A DNA stretch of 64,000 nucleotides. It comes from Halosolutus gelatinilyticus (GTDB lineage: Archaea; Halobacteriota; Halobacteria; Halobacteriales; Natrialbaceae). The translations under genes and the position numbers were made by a program. This document shows positions 12,138-19,020 of the stretch, piece by piece. The DNA lies in NCBI RefSeq assembly GCF_023028105.1, contig NZ_CP095492.1:124001-188000 (forward strand). Direction: 5' to 3'. Every line of letters begins with the position of its first letter. Position 1 is the first letter of the stretch. Under the pieces are notes generated by a model. That model searched no databases. It was not told where the DNA came from and saw only the letters and a list, made by a program, of their open reading frames with translations.

Positions 12138-13142
12138 TCAAGTGGCGGCGACGACACAGCGGAAGCCGATGTTGCCGGTGGAGCTGTCGGGGGTGTTCTT
12201 GGAGCGGGCGGCGACGCGGTAGCGGTTGCACCACGAGCGGTGACAGAGGTATGATCCTCCGCGCATTACCCGTTCCCTGCCAGTTTCCGGCCCGGTAGGG
12301 TTGTCGTACGAGTAGGCGTCGGTGGTGTGGTAGTCGGCGTCAAACCAGTCGGCACACCACTCCCAGACGTTGCCGGAGACGTTGTATAGCCCGTGGCCGT
12401 TGGGCTCGTACTCGTTGACGGGTGCGGTCTGGACGTAGCCGTCGTCGCCGGTGTTGTGCTCTGGAAAGTCCCCCTGCCAGATATTGCACCGGTGTTCGCC
12501 GTCGGGTCGCAACTCGTCTCCCCATGGGAACTTCCGCTGGTGGAGGCGACCGCGGGCGGCGTACTCCCACTCGGCCTCAGTCGGGAGACGCTTGCCTGCC
12601 CAGTCGGCGTACGCAGCGGCGTCGCGCCAGGAAACGTGGGTCACGGGGTGTTTCAAGAGTGAGCGGTCATCGAGGAGGCTCTCGCCGGGCCCGTTGGGAT
12701 GGAGCCAGTCGGCGCCTTCGACGGCGGCCCACCAGGGGGCCGCGCTCGCGTTCTGTACGATCCGGTCGCGGTCCGCATCCTTCACGAAATTCTCGAAGAC
12801 GAACGACCAGCCGAACCGCTCCGCGTCGGTCGTGTAGCCGGTCTCGCGGACGAACTCGAGGAACTGTGCGTTGGTGACCGCAAACTTGTCGACGTAGAAC
12901 GGCTCGACAGTAACCTCGCGCGTTGGACCCTCCCCGTCCTGGGGAAAACCGGCGTCGGAGTCCGTCCCCATGGTGAACGACCCGCCATCGAGGCGGACCA
13001 TTGCCTTCGTCCTGTCGTCGTCCTCAGCAACCGGTTCGGTTGCTGACGGCACGTCTGTCGATCGGTTATCGGCGGTCCCGTCTCTCGACGGATGCTGTCG
13101 GTCCCGTGACGCGGCACAGCACGCAGGATCGTCGTCCGTCAC
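12138..13142 (-). CDS. formylglycine-generating enzyme (SUMF1/FGE type)
   Basis: Oxidises the active-site Cys of type I sulfatases to formylglycine using O2 and copper. The family hallmarks are clear: GGSFTMG, WEYAARG, NVSGNVWEWCADW, and near the C-terminus GGSYLCHRSWCNRYR followed by SKNTPDSSTGNIGFRC. The cysteine pair with four residues between (Cys300 and Cys305 from the chosen start) matches the catalytic pair of human FGE. I chose a GTG at 13142 because AATTTACTC lies about 24 bases upstream; an ATG at 13202 is also in frame. There is no signal peptide, unlike eukaryotic FGE, so it acts in the cytoplasm. It lies 145 bases downstream of a sulfatase on the same strand and is the only FGE seen for five sulfatases. 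Confidence 0.9.
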   Translation of the reverse strand: MTDDDPACCAASRDRQHPSRDGTADNRSTDVPSATEPVAEDDDRTKAMVRLDGGSFTMGTDSDAGFPQDGEGPTREVTVEPFYVDKFAVTNAQFLEFVRETGYTTDAERFGWSFVFENFVKDADRDRIVQNASAAPWWAAVEGADWLHPNGPGESLLDDRSLLKHPVTHVSWRDAAAYADWAGKRLPTEAEWEYAARGRLHQRKFPWGDELRPDGEHRCNIWQGDFPEHNTGDDGYVQTAPVNEYEPNGHGLYNVSGNVWEWCADWFDADYHTTDAYSYDNPTGPETGRERVMRGGSYLCHRSWCNRYRVAARSKNTPDSSTGNIGFRCVVAAT

Positions 13143-13287
13143 GTCACGACGTATCCCGAGCACCGAGTAAATTCTTACGATGAAGTTCGTCGAACCGACC
13201 ACTGCGATGACAGCGACGTTCGGTGGGGAACATCGGTCGATCTATCTGAGGGCCGATAACGCTGGCCGTGGGTTCCGGGGGAAGGGC

Positions 13288-14751
13288 CTACCGGAAGTTC
13301 TCCGCCCAGTCGGCCGTGTTGACGTCGCTCCGAATGCGCCACTCCAGCAGGGTGTCGAGCAAAGCACGTTTGGCGCCCCGGGCGTCCGGGTCGCCCCACA
13401 GATTCTCGGTCTCCTCGGGGTCGGCGTTCAGATCGAACAACTGTCCCTCGTCGTGGTCAACGAAGTGGACGAGTTTCCAGTCGTCGGTCCGGACCATCGT
13501 CATGAACTCCGTCTCCTCCAGGATGCCGCTTCTGGCGTGTTCGGCAAACACGACATCGCGTCCCGTCCACTCGGAATCGCTTTCAAGCGCGCCGAGCAGG
13601 GATCTGGCCTCCATCGATTCGTCAATCGGCGCGTCGGCGATATCGAGCACGGTCGGTCCGAGATCGAACAGCGAGACGAGATCGTCGATCGTGTCGGGCT
13701 CGAAGCGCCCTGGCGACCACACCATCGTTGGAACGCGGGTGACCTCGTCGTACATCGTCCACTTTTGGATGTGGCCGTGGTCGGTCAGCATCTCTCCGTG
13801 GTCCGACGTAAACACGACGACCGTGTCCTCGTACCCGTTAGCTTCGAGCGCGTTCATGATTTTTCCAACCTGTTCGTCGATCATCGCCACGTTGGCGTAG
13901 TAGTAGGCCCGCTGTCGGCGGAGTTGCTCCGCTGTCGCATCAACGTCGTGCACGACCGAGTCGTGGTCGATTTCCCGGTGGTGCTCGCGGAGGGCCTTCA
14001 TCGGGGCCGGCTGACCGTCGAGGTCGTCACCGTCGAGTTTGGGCGACGGGAGGTCGCGGTCGAGGTACTCCTCCGCGTACTCCGGCGTCGGATCGTACGG
14101 CGGGTGCGGGCCGGGGAATCCCACCTCCATGAACAGCGGCTGGTCGAGCTTTGGCATGTGGTCGAGCCACCGCGTTACGAAGTCCCCGACGAACACATCC
14201 GGGTGAGTATCCTCCGGGAGCTCCCATTCAAAGGCGCCCAGCCGCTCCTCGTAGTCGTCCCACTGGCGGTAGAACTCCCGCTGCTGTTTCAGGAGGCCCC
14301 GCGCCCCCAGCGCTCGATCCCACTCGTCGAGGAAGTACTTCTCGCCAGGTAGCGGCGGTTCGCCCGCGGGAACGTCCCCGAGGTACCGGTCTTTGTTCTC
14401 AACGGGGTAGCGCTCGTCGAATCCCATCGACGTCTCGTAGGGAGCCGTATGCATTTTCCCGATATTTACCGTGTAGTACCCGCTGTCCGAGAGGTCCTCC
14501 ACCCACGAGTGGGTCCATCGATCGCCGTTCCGGTAGATCCCGGTCGTGTGGGGGTAGTAGCCGGTGAACAGGCTCGCCCGAGAGGGTGCACACGACGGCG
14601 CCGTAATGTGGCAGTCAGTAAACGACACCCCATTCTCGACGAGTCGGTCCAGGTTCGGCGTGTCCATATGCTCTGCACCGAGCGCTCGGACCGTGTCGTA
14701 TCGCTGCTGGTCAGTATTGATGAAGACGATATTCGGTCGGTCGTCCGTCAT
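13288..14751 (-). CDS. type I sulfatase
   Basis: Sulfatase of 487 residues from the ATG at 14751. Metal-binding NTDQQRYD (residues 12-19), formylglycine signature CAPSR with Cys54 followed by ASLFTGYYPH, GFPGPHPPYDP, and the second metal site TSDHGEMLTDHGHIQK. The C-terminal subdomain ends with DPEETENLWGDP. It is closer to choline-sulfatase/iduronate-sulfatase-like branches than to the other four sulfatases here. It has no signal peptide. It lies upstream of the FGE gene on the same strand, a direct substrate-activator pairing. Confidence 0.92.
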   Translation of the reverse strand: MTDDRPNIVFINTDQQRYDTVRALGAEHMDTPNLDRLVENGVSFTDCHITAPSCAPSRASLFTGYYPHTTGIYRNGDRWTHSWVEDLSDSGYYTVNIGKMHTAPYETSMGFDERYPVENKDRYLGDVPAGEPPLPGEKYFLDEWDRALGARGLLKQQREFYRQWDDYEERLGAFEWELPEDTHPDVFVGDFVTRWLDHMPKLDQPLFMEVGFPGPHPPYDPTPEYAEEYLDRDLPSPKLDGDDLDGQPAPMKALREHHREIDHDSVVHDVDATAEQLRRQRAYYYANVAMIDEQVGKIMNALEANGYEDTVVVFTSDHGEMLTDHGHIQKWTMYDEVTRVPTMVWSPGRFEPDTIDDLVSLFDLGPTVLDIADAPIDESMEARSLLGALESDSEWTGRDVVFAEHARSGILEETEFMTMVRTDDWKLVHFVDHDEGQLFDLNADPEETENLWGDPDARGAKRALLDTLLEWRIRSDVNTADWAENFR

Positions 14752-16312
14752 ACTGGTCCTCTGTGATGGAACGGTCAAAACGTTTGTCCATCTCTGTCAC
14801 TGTCAGCCGATTCCGGCAGTATGCGAAGACGGTCACAAGCGTCGAACCGAGTCGAATCGCTATAACTCGCGCGATCCGGCCGTTTCCATCTGTCGGCTGT
14901 AACTCGGCTTTCCGCTCGCATCGATTGGTTTTGACGGGATGCCACTGGATCCCGTTCGCGTCCGGGCCCCGTGTGCGAAGTGAAAATGGCAGTAAGTCAT
15001 CTGTGGAATCAATAGGTGATGTCTGTTCAGATCAACCCGCTAAGTTGCCTTCGAAGGCTTGAGTTCGGGATCGGCATCTCCGGCGCCGCCCAGCGCGTTG
15101 CCGACATAACGGGGTCGAAGACGATCGTGCGATCGGCACCGAGCTGACGGCCCCGCGATGGACGTCGCCGACTGCGCGCTCGTCGGTGACCTCTCCGGCG
15201 TCGGCCGGCGTTGACCGAACGGTTCCAGTAGCGGGCAGAAAGGATAGCGCGGTCTTGTTTGCCCTCGGCGGCCGTCTGCTCGTCGAGTGGCTGCTGCGCT
15301 CGCCGCGTATGAACCAAGTAAGCTACTCTCCGCCGTTCATCTGATCGCAGACTCGCTAGTGGTGGAAGCAATCCGCGCAAATCGCCTGCTTCTCCCGAGG
15401 TAAACGCCCGTCAGGGCGTTGCCGACCGTCCCACACGACCACGGTCTCCTCAGGAAACACGGACAAGTCTTCCCTTTTACAAGTGGTCTTCCACTATCCA
15501 GCTCTGCTGAAGCCGACCCCCTGAAACTACTAAGTAGTTTATTCTCTCACGTGCTATTAAAAAGCTCCAAATACTAATATTCTATTACTGAATCCTCTAA
15601 GGACATATTTGGTGCAGATCTCTCTCTATCGCTCACGTCGAAATCAAAACCGTGACGATCGTAACGCGATTCTGTGACGAATTTAGATCGGACAAAGGCG
15701 AGTATAGGTGGCTCTTATCGTCGAATTATCCGTGTCAGTAGCACGATGTGATTGAGTGCCGATCGGTGGTACACTGGTATTCAGCCTTGGACGGCTCCGA
15801 TCTATACTAGATATATCTACACGTGGACTACTCTCTGAAAACACCATATTTGACGGCTATGGAAAAACAGGGAAAATAAACACCTATTTGTTTCTTCACT
15901 CACTGGGAACGTCGAGATCGTATCGATAGGCATAGTTCACACGTCGCACTCCACCGGCCGAACGCGCGAATCGAGAGCGGGCCAGGCGATTCGGCTCTCA
16001 CTTCCGGGCGACTACGTCATTCGGGTCTCCAACCGATTTACGATCAACTGACCAAATTCCAGATGTGGCGATCACGTCTAGTCGCAGCGCCTCGTAGATT
16101 CCCCCGATCGCGCGCATCAGTTCTCCCTGCCGATGACGGGCCTCCTTACACTTGGCGAGGATCTGGCTGGTTCTCCCGTGTGAGAACTGAGATCCGTGGG
16201 AGGAATAGTTTCAGTAGGTACCTACTCCACCTGTCGACTGCGAGCACGATCGACTCGGGATCGTCGGGAGTTTTCGAGTATCGACTGCATCCCCGTATCG
16301 GTGAAGACCGAT
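14752..16312. other. gene-poor region
   Basis: About 1.5 kb with no gene I can support. It includes an A/T-rich stretch (about 15530-15620 and 15780-15900), unusual for this genome, and one isolated CAATAGGTG at 15010-15018 identical to the repeat unit beside ParA. A possible protein fragment at 15356-15492 is listed separately. No origin recognition boxes or RNA genes are evident. Confidence 0.5.
15356..15492 (-). pseudogene. fragment of a small Cys-containing protein
   Basis: The minus strand reads about 45 codons ending in a coherent peptide with VFPEETVVVWDG and QAICADCFHH before a TAG. There is no start codon after the upstream stop. The composition looks like coding sequence, so this may be the C-terminal remnant of a small zinc-binding protein. 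The family is not recognised. Confidence 0.3.
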
Positions 16313-16387
16313 CTATTGGGCTGGTTGACGGTATATTCGCTCGGATAGGGGAAGTCGGTTCAAGGGGCGAGTTCAGTGTGACAGGTC

Positions 16388-16930
16388 CAATAGGTGTAAT
16401 AGATGTAATAGGTGCGGTTCGCACAGTATGTTTGGAAGGTGGGCCACGTGAGGTATGTCCAGTAGGTACTACTTGAGGTTGCTGCGTCGCAACCAGGAAA
16501 CGTAGCAAACCGATGGCCGCAGAGATCGGTTGAACTTGCTCGATCGACAACCGAACAGGGAAGCCAGGTTGAGGCGGTGTTTTAACTACCTTCCCTACAA
16601 TAGGCACCTTCCCTACTTCACCTATTATAGCTATTGCACTTATCGTATATACTTCACCTTTACCAGGGAGCTTTCCTTCGAAACGAAGGGGTGTATTAAC
16701 GGCTGAAATCGGAGCTAGTGATACAATAGGTGTCTGGAGTAGGTGGCTCACCTATCTTACCACAACTACCTATTGTACCTGCTACAGTATTTGACCTGCG
16801 GCGCACGGGGATCGGAAGGAAGCGCTAGACGCACCTTCTTCGTTAGGCTCTCCCGCCTATCGCCACAATAGGTACCTCTTCTATCTGGTCTAGGTCACCT
16901 ATTGCAGCTACTGCACCTATTGAATCTACA
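16388..16930. repeat. left 9-bp phased repeat array beside parA
   Basis: Blocks of degenerate 9-bp repeats, consensus ATTGCACCT (equivalent to CAATAGGTG on the other strand). Clear blocks: three units on one strand at 16388-16414 (CAATAGGTG, TAATAGATG, TAATAGGTG); units at 16624-16659 (ATTATAGCT, ATTGCACTT, ATCGTATAT, ACTTCACCT); units at 16754-16789 (including CAACTACCT, ATTGTACCT); and units at 16892-16927 (AGGTCACCT, ATTGCAGCT, ACTGCACCT, ATTGAATCT). Within a block the phase is exactly 9. The orientation flips between the first block and the later ones. Position next to ParA suggests a partition centromere or replication iterons. Confidence 0.65.
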
Positions 16931-17039
16931 GTAGGTAGAATTATTACGCAGGAATTGAATACATTCACTATCCACTGAAACAGGCGATTTCGGTACAATA
17001 GATACCTATCGCTCTGTTGAAACCGGGTACAAGACAATA

Positions 17040-17930
17040 ATGGGCGAGACAACGACCGATCCACGCGCCGTCAGCGTGGTCATCCTGAAAGGTGGTGTCG
17101 GCAAATCAACGACCTCGATGAACCTCGCGCGGCAGCTCGCCGAGCGAGGGAGGACGCTGTTCGCGGACTTGGACCCGAACGGTCACGCGACGAACGGCCT
17201 CGGATACCGAGACGCCTATCAGAGCGACGTGAACCTCGGCGACGTGATACTCGACGGCGCCGCGACGCCGGCCGATATCATCCGATCGACCGAGCATAGC
17301 TTCGATCTGTTACCCTCGTCGAACACGCTCGAAGACGTCGAAAAAGACCTCGCGGGGGCGATGCAGGGATCGGCGCGAGTCAAATCGAAGATCGTAGATC
17401 CGTTACTGGGCGAGCGATACGACTACGTCGTGTTCGACTGCCCGGCGTATCCCGGGATGCTGAACAACAACGCCCTCGTCGCGACGGGAAACGTCGTGAT
17501 TCCGATCGAACCCGGCTCGAGCGCGATCGGCGGCTACAAGCGGACGATGGAGCGACTCATCGAACCCGCGCGCGAGTACATCGACGTCGACGTGCTCGCG
17601 GTCGTCCCGAACAAACTCGGCGATCGAATCGACCAGCAGACCGAGGATCGCGAACTCCTCGAGAACCTGAACACCGCGAGTTACGAGGTGAACCCCGGGC
17701 AACCGCTACAGGAAGCGGTGCCGGAGTTTGCCCGCATCACCGCCGACGAGTTCGAGCAGATCGACGCCGGCGAGATTCCCGCGCCGAAACCCGGCATTCG
17801 CCACCGATCGGCCCTCTCTCGATCCCTCCAGCACAACCAGCCGTTGCAGGACTACGATCCCGAGAATGACCAGATCGCGTGCTACGAGGAACTCGCGGGG
17901 ATCGTCGCGAACGGAGGGATCGATCGATGA
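17040..17930 (+). CDS. ParA/Soj-type partition ATPase
   Basis: A 296-residue MinD/ParA-family ATPase. The deviant Walker A motif KGGVGKST is at residues 17-24 with the signature lysine Lys17. Walker A' is FADLDPNGHATNGLG and Walker B is YVVFDCPAYPG. It lacks an N-terminal helix-turn-helix, so it probably does not bind DNA specifically by itself. ParA proteins move DNA cargo with a centromere-binding partner. Here the next gene overlaps by 4 bases (ATGA) and 9-bp repeats lie on both sides, so this looks like a complete partition cassette of a plasmid or integrated plasmid. Confidence 0.88.
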   Translation: MGETTTDPRAVSVVILKGGVGKSTTSMNLARQLAERGRTLFADLDPNGHATNGLGYRDAYQSDVNLGDVILDGAATPADIIRSTEHSFDLLPSSNTLEDVEKDLAGAMQGSARVKSKIVDPLLGERYDYVVFDCPAYPGMLNNNALVATGNVVIPIEPGSSAIGGYKRTMERLIEPAREYIDVDVLAVVPNKLGDRIDQQTEDRELLENLNTASYEVNPGQPLQEAVPEFARITADEFEQIDAGEIPAPKPGIRHRSALSRSLQHNQPLQDYDPENDQIACYEELAGIVANGGIDR

Positions 17931-18376
17931 CGAATCCGTTCGACGACCTCGAAACCGCCGAAACCGAATCGGACGCCGCCGAGATGGAGTCGGACGACAC
18001 CGCCGAAGAGATGTCGACGGACGGCGACGCAGATACCTCACCGGCGGACGATGCTGATACGTCACCGACTGCGACGGCCATTCGAGAGTCGAGGGAGCGG
18101 CCGATCGAAGAGGAGCAGACGAGTGACGAAGTAAACGCCGCCGAGTCGGGACCGGCGTTCGAGTACGGCGAGGTCCGCCAGAAACCGCTCTACGCCCGCG
18201 ACGAGACGTGGACGGAATTCGAAAAGAACCTTCGGACGACGATCGCGCCCACGCTCGCCGAGGCGGACGTCGTCGACGAGGAAACGCGAGAGATTCACGA
18301 CGCGGTCCTTCGACTCGCGAACGCAGAGCCGGAGCGGGTAGCGGAACTGGTGCTCGAAGCGCGACGCGAACCCTGA
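17927..18376 (+). CDS. small acidic ParA partner protein
   Basis: A 149-residue protein of unrecognised family. The first 60 residues are extremely acidic and low-complexity (Asp/Glu/Thr/Ala). The C-terminal half (about 85-149) is predicted helical, beginning YGEVRQKPLYARDETW and ending with LRLANAEPERVAELVLEARR. The start ATG overlaps the stop of the ParA gene as ATGA. Coupling to ParA and flanking repeats suggest it is the ParB-like adaptor or centromere-binding component, although no ParB motif is visible. This role is inferred from position only. Confidence 0.75.
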   Translation: MTNPFDDLETAETESDAAEMESDDTAEEMSTDGDADTSPADDADTSPTATAIRESRERPIEEEQTSDEVNAAESGPAFEYGEVRQKPLYARDETWTEFEKNLRTTIAPTLAEADVVDEETREIHDAVLRLANAEPERVAELVLEARREP

Positions 18377-18490
18377 ACGTTTTCTCGCCGAGCACCGGGA
18401 CTATCGATCGATAATTCAGAAGCGACGCAATTCGTCGCTCCTCAGCGATCTCGAATTTGTTCCTGCTGTGCCCGAGTCCCTATTATAAAT

Positions 18491-18550
18491 ATTGCACCTA
18501 TTGCACCTATTTTATCTATTGAGAATGTTCTAGCTATTACAGCTGTTATT
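18491..18550. repeat. right 9-bp phased repeat array
   Basis: Six consecutive 9-bp units and part of a seventh: ATTGCACCT, ATTGCACCT, ATTTTATCT, ATTGAGAAT, GTTCTAGCT, ATTACAGCT, then GTTATT. The consensus is the same as the array on the other side of the ParA operon. Its last bases run into the 3' end of the adjacent pseudogene. Confidence 0.65.
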
Positions 18551-19020
18551 CTCGACTGAAGATGACGGAAAATTCGGTCGTCTCGCTCATGGACTTCAAC
18601 TCTCGTAGTTCAAGTTCGTATTCCTGTCGACGAACAGTAATATATTCGTAGTGAGGGTTTCTACGCCAGAAGAGATACCAGGCAGCAGCATTCCTCGTGG
18701 CGGTCCACGGCGATCACGAACATCGATTCGTTCAATAGTAGCGACTGTACGATTCGGGTCACAGTCAATCATCAGCGTCCCGCACGACGCGTGAATGCAT
18801 TCGTATCGGCCGAAACGAATAGTGTTGTCAACATCAGTATAGAATTCTGTTCGTGTTCGACAACAAACTCGTTACCGGGCGAATCGTCGACTGCCCGAAT
18901 CGCTTCGTCCTTCGCGTCGAATTCCCCGGCCACGGCCGAACTGATTTCCGCCTCGACGGTCGAACCGATGCGCCGGTCTACGTCGAGGTGAATTTTGACA
19001 GAGTTTGAATGGCCGATATG
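18546..19020 (-). pseudogene. frameshifted gene of unknown function
   Basis: Three coherent coding segments lie in different frames on the minus strand. The N-terminal part reads VKIHLDVDRRIGSTVEAE and on to EFVVEHEQN. The middle reads YTDVDNTIRFGRYECIHASC to ERIDVRD. The C-terminal part reads WTATRNAAAWYLFWRRNPHY to FSVIFSRE before TAA at 18546-18548. At least two frameshifts separate them and no start codon precedes the first segment. The composition and continuity show a once-real protein of about 150 residues; the family is not recognised. Confidence 0.6.

Follow-up and report, generated by a model that had tools for sequence, protein, structure and literature searches.

A ParA operon flanked by phased 9-bp repeats on a Halosolutus plasmid: a candidate partition system with relatives across the haloarchaea

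A ParA operon between two arrays of 9-bp repeats

The window analysed here is a stretch of 64,000 nucleotides from Halosolutus gelatinilyticus, corresponding to bases 124001–188000 of the 562,212 bp contig C2 in a 4.76 Mb genome of four contigs. It contains a ParA gene followed by a small gene coding for an acidic protein; a 4-bp ATGA is common to the end of the first and the start of the second, and 9-bp periodicity is evident on both sides of the pair (Table 1), in agreement with a preliminary description that placed a ParA gene and an overlapping small acidic gene between two 9-bp arrays. The ParA product belongs to the ParA family, having a KGGVGKST sequence (a deviant Walker A motif of the form KGGxGKST, with the signature lysine), a P-loop that begins near residue 17 of 296, and a Pfam match to AAA_31 at 3.5e-30 as well as one to CbiA; solved ParA/Soj chains in the PDB are also matched, down to 1e-17. 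The layout is type Ib-like, with a short ParA that lacks an N-terminal helix-turn-helix (HTH), a partner gene directly downstream, and repeats alongside.

Table 1. Features of the ParA operon and its flanking arrays (positions in the window)
Feature	Position	Strand	Remarks
Left array, block 1, five inverted units	16387..16467	-	Three contiguous, then +18, +36; gaps 9, 9, 18, 36
Left array, block 2, mostly + units	16584..16655	+	Contiguous 16611-16655; one inverted at 16597
Left array, block 3, mixed orientation	16713..16792	.	Two perfect ACCTATTGT (16723 -, 16768 +)
Left array, block 4, mixed orientation	16833..16936	.	Contiguous + units 16897-16923
Predicted operator, two head-to-head units, ACAATAGAT and ACCTATCGC	16995..17012	.	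43 bp before ParA start
ParA ATPase, 296 aa	17040..17930	+	Deviant Walker A KGGVGKST; no N-terminal HTH extension
Partner, 149 aa, proposed centromere-binding adaptor	17927..18376	+	Translation; architecture conserved in 33 sequences
Codons for NPFDDL (general form xFxxL), candidate ParA-contact peptide	17933..17950	+	
Codons for predicted DNA-reading strand VRQKPLYAR, residues 83-91	18173..18199	+	Covariation at Q85 and P87
Right array, seven + units	18478..18549	+	Gaps 9, 9, 9, 9, 18, 9

The repeats on both sides of the operon are degenerate variants of a unit with the consensus ACCTATTGY, which describes them better than the ATTGCACCT first proposed, an exact string that occurs just twice in the window. 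With a matrix trained on other species we identified 28 units to the left and seven to the right, 35 in all and without overlap, in a total of 743 bp and at a density 13-fold that of the remaining window, and 19 of the 29 gaps of 40 bp or less between neighbours are multiples of 9. The left array does consist of several blocks, the first of them inverted as had been noted, but it spans about 626 bp (16387–17012) rather than 540 bp, and in its later blocks units of both orientations occur and do not all keep to a single frame. The right array, previously read as six units in a row, is present with seven units and one position skipped. On the left (16380–17039) the autocorrelation for lags of 9, 18, and 27 is 0.340, compared with 0.249 in shuffled sequence; on the right (18478–18560) it is 0.518, compared with 0.284. 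The z values, expressed as standard deviations above dinucleotide shuffles, are 9.1 and 7.6 respectively. The contrast between multiples of 9 and other multiples of 3, which cancels the three-base rhythm of coding DNA, has its maximum of 0.104 at 16351, on the left, and does not exceed 0.037 outside the par region anywhere in the 64 kb. The left array region is AT-rich, with a GC content of 47.6% versus 63.5%.

The partner protein

The partner has NPFDDL at its N-terminus, followed by an acidic tail that is predicted to be disordered and then a C-terminal domain of about 75 residues. In an AlphaFold2 model of the C-terminal 79 residues as a monomer (pLDDT 82, pTM 0.61) an extended segment is followed by three helices, at 22–42, 50–63, and 65–77; the remainder of the protein is modelled at low confidence and is probably disordered. 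Searches of Pfam, NCBIfam, and PHROGs returned matches at chance level only and place the partner in no known family, and neither a ParB family member nor an HTH was found in the Pfam and NCBIfam scans, such that the locus does not group with the type Ia ParB/Spo0J systems. The earlier statement that the partner has no ParB motif therefore holds. Foldseek comparison of the full-length and C-terminal models with the PDB gave no usable match, hhalign found no match of the partner profile to omega (probability 0.1%), ParG, or CopG, and no ribbon-helix-helix protein was recovered by Foldseek, hhalign, or Pfam. A match to TFIIE alpha in a PDB profile search (E 0.008), involving the acidic tail, was dismissed as compositional. 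One hypothesis is that the C-terminal domain has a ribbon-helix-helix fold.

The tail of ParG, the partner protein of plasmid TP228, bears an arginine-finger-like motif (PMC7308502). Of 145 haloarchaeal partners, 137 have an xFxxL motif within 14 residues of a start codon. The tails share no conserved arginine, and in 65 of 137 partners the first 40 residues contain none at all. Activation of ParA by the partner, if it occurs, may thus differ from that by the ParG tail.

Relatives among the haloarchaea

A genome scan with ParA identified about 32 close haloarchaeal loci, and in each of those that cover the partner position a partner gene comes next, with the same arrangement of NPFDDL, variable acidic tail, and conserved C-terminal domain. 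A profile of that domain matches 152 of the 294 Halobacteria genomes, representing 53 of 79 genera; ParA adjoins the partner gene in 98 of 100 sampled copies, and when the phylum was sampled the 19 partner-positive genomes were all from the same order. Because the family is missing from roughly half of the haloarchaeal genomes, it is not the sole way to keep a haloarchaeal plasmid. Plasmid searches placed the pair on Halobacterium pNRC100 and pNRC200 and on plasmids of Haloferax, Halobaculum, Haloarcula, Halorussus, Haladaptatus, Halocatena, Salinigranum, and others. The Soj/ParA genes of pNRC100 and pNRC200 are thus members of this family, each with ParA, a partner (VNG_RS11100 on pNRC200), and a 9-bp array; in the literature found they have been annotated as soj/parA only, with the partner a hypothetical protein and no array reported (PMC7439475).

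Two partner matches stand apart. One (L117, G257:C2:68997-72424) is an orphan without ParA and has no 9-bp array beside it (z 1.4); its contig also has a second partner match. The other (L060) is an unannotated partner-like match at 2501–2725 of Haloferax mediterranei pHME132, with no annotated ParA alongside, and is possibly a decayed operon.

A 9-bp period upstream of the operons

The period is general. In the 600-bp regions that precede 144 operons (a set that includes the orphan L117), mean autocorrelation is 0.338, 0.330, 0.313, and 0.309 at lags 9, 18, 27, and 36, and 0.249–0.264 at the remaining lags from 2 to 39, such that peaks are confined to these four. Periodicity at 9 bp has a z above 4 in 126 of the 144 upstream regions, and about ten of the 144 operons have no clear array; the absence of arrays near orthologous operons, which had been raised as a possible objection, is therefore not what is seen. 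Gaps between units of the same orientation are exactly 9 in 718 cases and 18 in 195, with no other gap up to 26 occurring more than 11 times; because folding at 9 was used to seed the unit matrices, these counts taken alone are partly circular, which the autocorrelation is not. There is a median of 14 units per locus, extending over hundreds of bp. Downstream arrays were considered as a general feature and rejected, with a best period of 9 or 18 in a minority of loci only.

Among relatives of the window's class, a palindrome of two head-to-head units, AATAGGNNCCTATT, is present with no more than one mismatch in 29 of 39 upstream regions, usually 35–49 bp before ParA; the window copy has two mismatches. 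A repressor of the operon would be expected to bind at such a position, and the array very likely doubles as an operator. It could be argued that the arrays are nothing but operators, with the partner autorepressing the ParA operon, the many units tuning expression cooperatively, and the segregation site lying elsewhere; most relatives have the palindrome some 43 bp ahead of ParA, which is consistent with this, and ribbon-helix-helix partition proteins such as ParG also repress their own operons (PMC7308502). However, so many units over such distances exceed what an operator needs, as do the separate downstream array of the window and a further unit cluster at 526.7 kb of C2, and we regard this explanation as unlikely. 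The reading we prefer is that the array is probably the centromere of the plasmid.

Unit sequences and covariation with the partner

Although the period is shared, the sequence of the unit is specific to one class of plasmids. ACCTATTGY is the class of the window and of most Natrialbaceae; others are TCTACTGTG (pNRC200), TGCTATTCA (pNRC100), ACCTAAGGC/AGCTACCTT, ACAAWTTGT, and ACACAGTNN. Palindromic units were considered as a general rule and rejected: three classes score 0.76–0.84 for similarity to their own reverse complement compared with 0.62 for scrambled units, and the window's class scores 0.56.

Similarity of the units follows identity of the partner domain, with a Spearman coefficient of 0.55 over all pairs and 0.46 over pairs below 70% identity; neither value was reached in any of 500 permutations. 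This covariation, in statistics that do not model phylogeny explicitly, is partly shared ancestry. With overall identity removed, the columns that best track the unit are Q85 and P87, both in the predicted strand VRQKPLYAR, and a pair of alternating strand residues (i, i+2) facing the DNA is what would be expected of a ribbon-helix-helix reader. Covariation averaged over the strand is above that of the rest of the domain, a difference matched in none of 500 permutations with 49 representatives and in 15 of 500 with 24.

A second plasmid of the same cell provides a useful comparison. Contig C3 (200,542 bp) has its own ParA-partner operon at 16.7–18.7 kb (L199), the ParA of which is 43% identical to that of the window; its partner has KKTVYVR where the window partner has RQKPLYAR, and its 9-bp array (contrast 0.144) is built from a different unit, ACACNGTNN. 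A strict pattern of the window unit has 11 matches in its own genome, of which ten are on C2, one on C4, and none on C1; one of the ten is the small extra cluster at 526.7 kb. Among 18 pairs of arrays in which both members come from one genome, too few for a firm test, none share a unit above a similarity of 0.86. No 9-bp array was found at ParA-like genes without a partner, on C4 and in phiH1, PhiCh1, and ChaoS9.

These patterns bear on two further explanations. The arrays might be replication iterons of an origin that the ParA operon merely adjoins, given their AT-richness (GC 0.476 against 0.635) and the presence of orc1/cdc6 near the operon in Halobacterium pNRC200, Haloferax pSVX82-2, and Halocatena. 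A search of C2 for Cdc6_C-type initiators, however, found none adjoining the arrays, the sole match lying at C2:95 kb, about 45 kb away, and the unit covaries with the partner domain while ParA genes lacking a partner have no array; because the match is so distant and the arrays follow the partner, we consider iterons very improbable. It is equally improbable that ParA and its partner position some other cargo, in a MinD- or McdA-like manner, next to unrelated repeats. ParA-family ATPases do position many kinds of cargo, and the partner has no recognizable DNA-binding family, but the operon is typical of plasmids and its arrays are replicon-specific and covary with the partner.

We note separately that in phiH1, PhiCh1, and ChaoS9 (L192–L194) a small overlapping gene follows the viral ParA, with no 9-bp array upstream.

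Comparison with known partition systems

By the tests that we applied, the locus is a member of neither the delta/omega nor the ParF/ParG family, although it resembles both. The centromere of pSM19035 is composed of contiguous 7-bp repeats in either orientation that overlap the par promoters, and the ATPase is activated only if four or more of the repeats are contiguous (PMC9499535). The likeness lies in contiguous, short, non-palindromic repeats in both orientations and in a ParA with a small partner, for which DNA binding is here proposed; the pitch, however, is 7 bp there (WATCACW) and 9 bp here, the partner is not detectably homologous to omega, its acidic tail lacks a conserved arginine, the units have diversified into classes, and the system is archaeal. 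In TP228, ParG has a flexible N-terminal tail, coats an array of degenerate boxes, and also represses its operon (PMC7308502). A ParA homologue with a small tailed partner and an array of degenerate boxes are common to ParF/ParG/parH and the system here, and the two differ in boxes and spacer, in the ParG tail motif, which is not conserved here, and in having no detectable homology.

Two archaeal systems described in the literature consulted differ from it in both sites and proteins. SegB, the DNA-binding partner in SegAB, binds 13-bp palindromes scattered on the chromosome (PMC12284271; PMC5120986). SegAB likewise has a ParA homologue with an overlapping downstream partner gene and sites upstream of the operon, but its chromosomal palindromes contrast with the phased plasmid arrays described here, and no SegB was among the PDB chains matched by the partner profile. 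The pNOB8 system AspA-ParB-ParA is also one of archaeal plasmid partition, in which AspA spreads along the DNA, starting at a site beside the gene that encodes it (PMC5120986); it has three proteins and one 23-bp palindrome, compared with two proteins and 9-bp arrays. We found no description of the partner family or of the 9-bp rule in haloarchaea, and the earlier suggestion that the system is new to haloarchaea stands within the literature searched, subscription papers and preprints lying outside it.

A model for partition

We think it likely that ParA, the partner, and the arrays constitute the partition module of the 562-kb plasmid, with the partner coating an array that serves as both centromere and operator and driving ParA through its acidic tail; this reading is drawn from sequence, and by analogy the system would work much as delta/omega or ParF/ParG does in bacteria. 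The order of the genes, the arrays and how far they are conserved, the divergence of the units, and the covariation are observed directly; binding, repression, stimulation of ParA, and segregation are inferred. The C-terminal domain would bind the 9-bp units, one protein unit, probably a dimer, to each repeat, and partner units sitting side by side along the array would make it a centromere. At the two-unit palindrome before ParA the partner would act as a repressor of the operon that encodes it. Nucleoid-bound ParA-ATP would be contacted by the acidic disordered tail, with its xFxxL motif, and thereby released, such that plasmid copies move apart. The 9-bp pitch would be fixed by the packing of neighbouring proteins and hence would not have diverged, and joint divergence of the unit and the partner's reading strand is, we propose, what keeps plasmids in one cell free of cross-talk.

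On balance, though with less confidence, we favour the broader view that haloarchaea have a ParA partition class of their own, with an undescribed family of centromere-binding proteins and a fixed-pitch array, in which the letters of the unit and the reading strand have co-diversified. The resulting specificity classes would allow several megaplasmids to coexist in one cell, amounting to an incompatibility code that may be read from sequence. In a 2016 review, the simultaneous segregation of several replicons in halophilic archaea and the appearance of archaeal centromeres were listed among the open questions (PMC5120986). The locus and its relatives offer a concrete and testable answer: the genes are named, a centromere is predicted, and one rule (a period of 9, with the unit set by the partner) works in about half of the haloarchaeal genomes sampled, including pNRC100, pNRC200, and a Haloferax plasmid. 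If it is true, incompatibility groups of haloarchaeal plasmids would be predictable from sequence and stable vectors could be built.

Two minor observations concern the remainder of C2. The cluster at C2:526700–526760 is small and isolated; it has about five ACCTATTNN units, lies a long way from the par operon, and may be a remnant or a second centromere site. Inspection by eye also showed that a formylglycine-generating-enzyme-like gene (12138–13202) adjoins a sulfatase-like gene (13288–14778) on the minus strand at 12138–14778 of the window.
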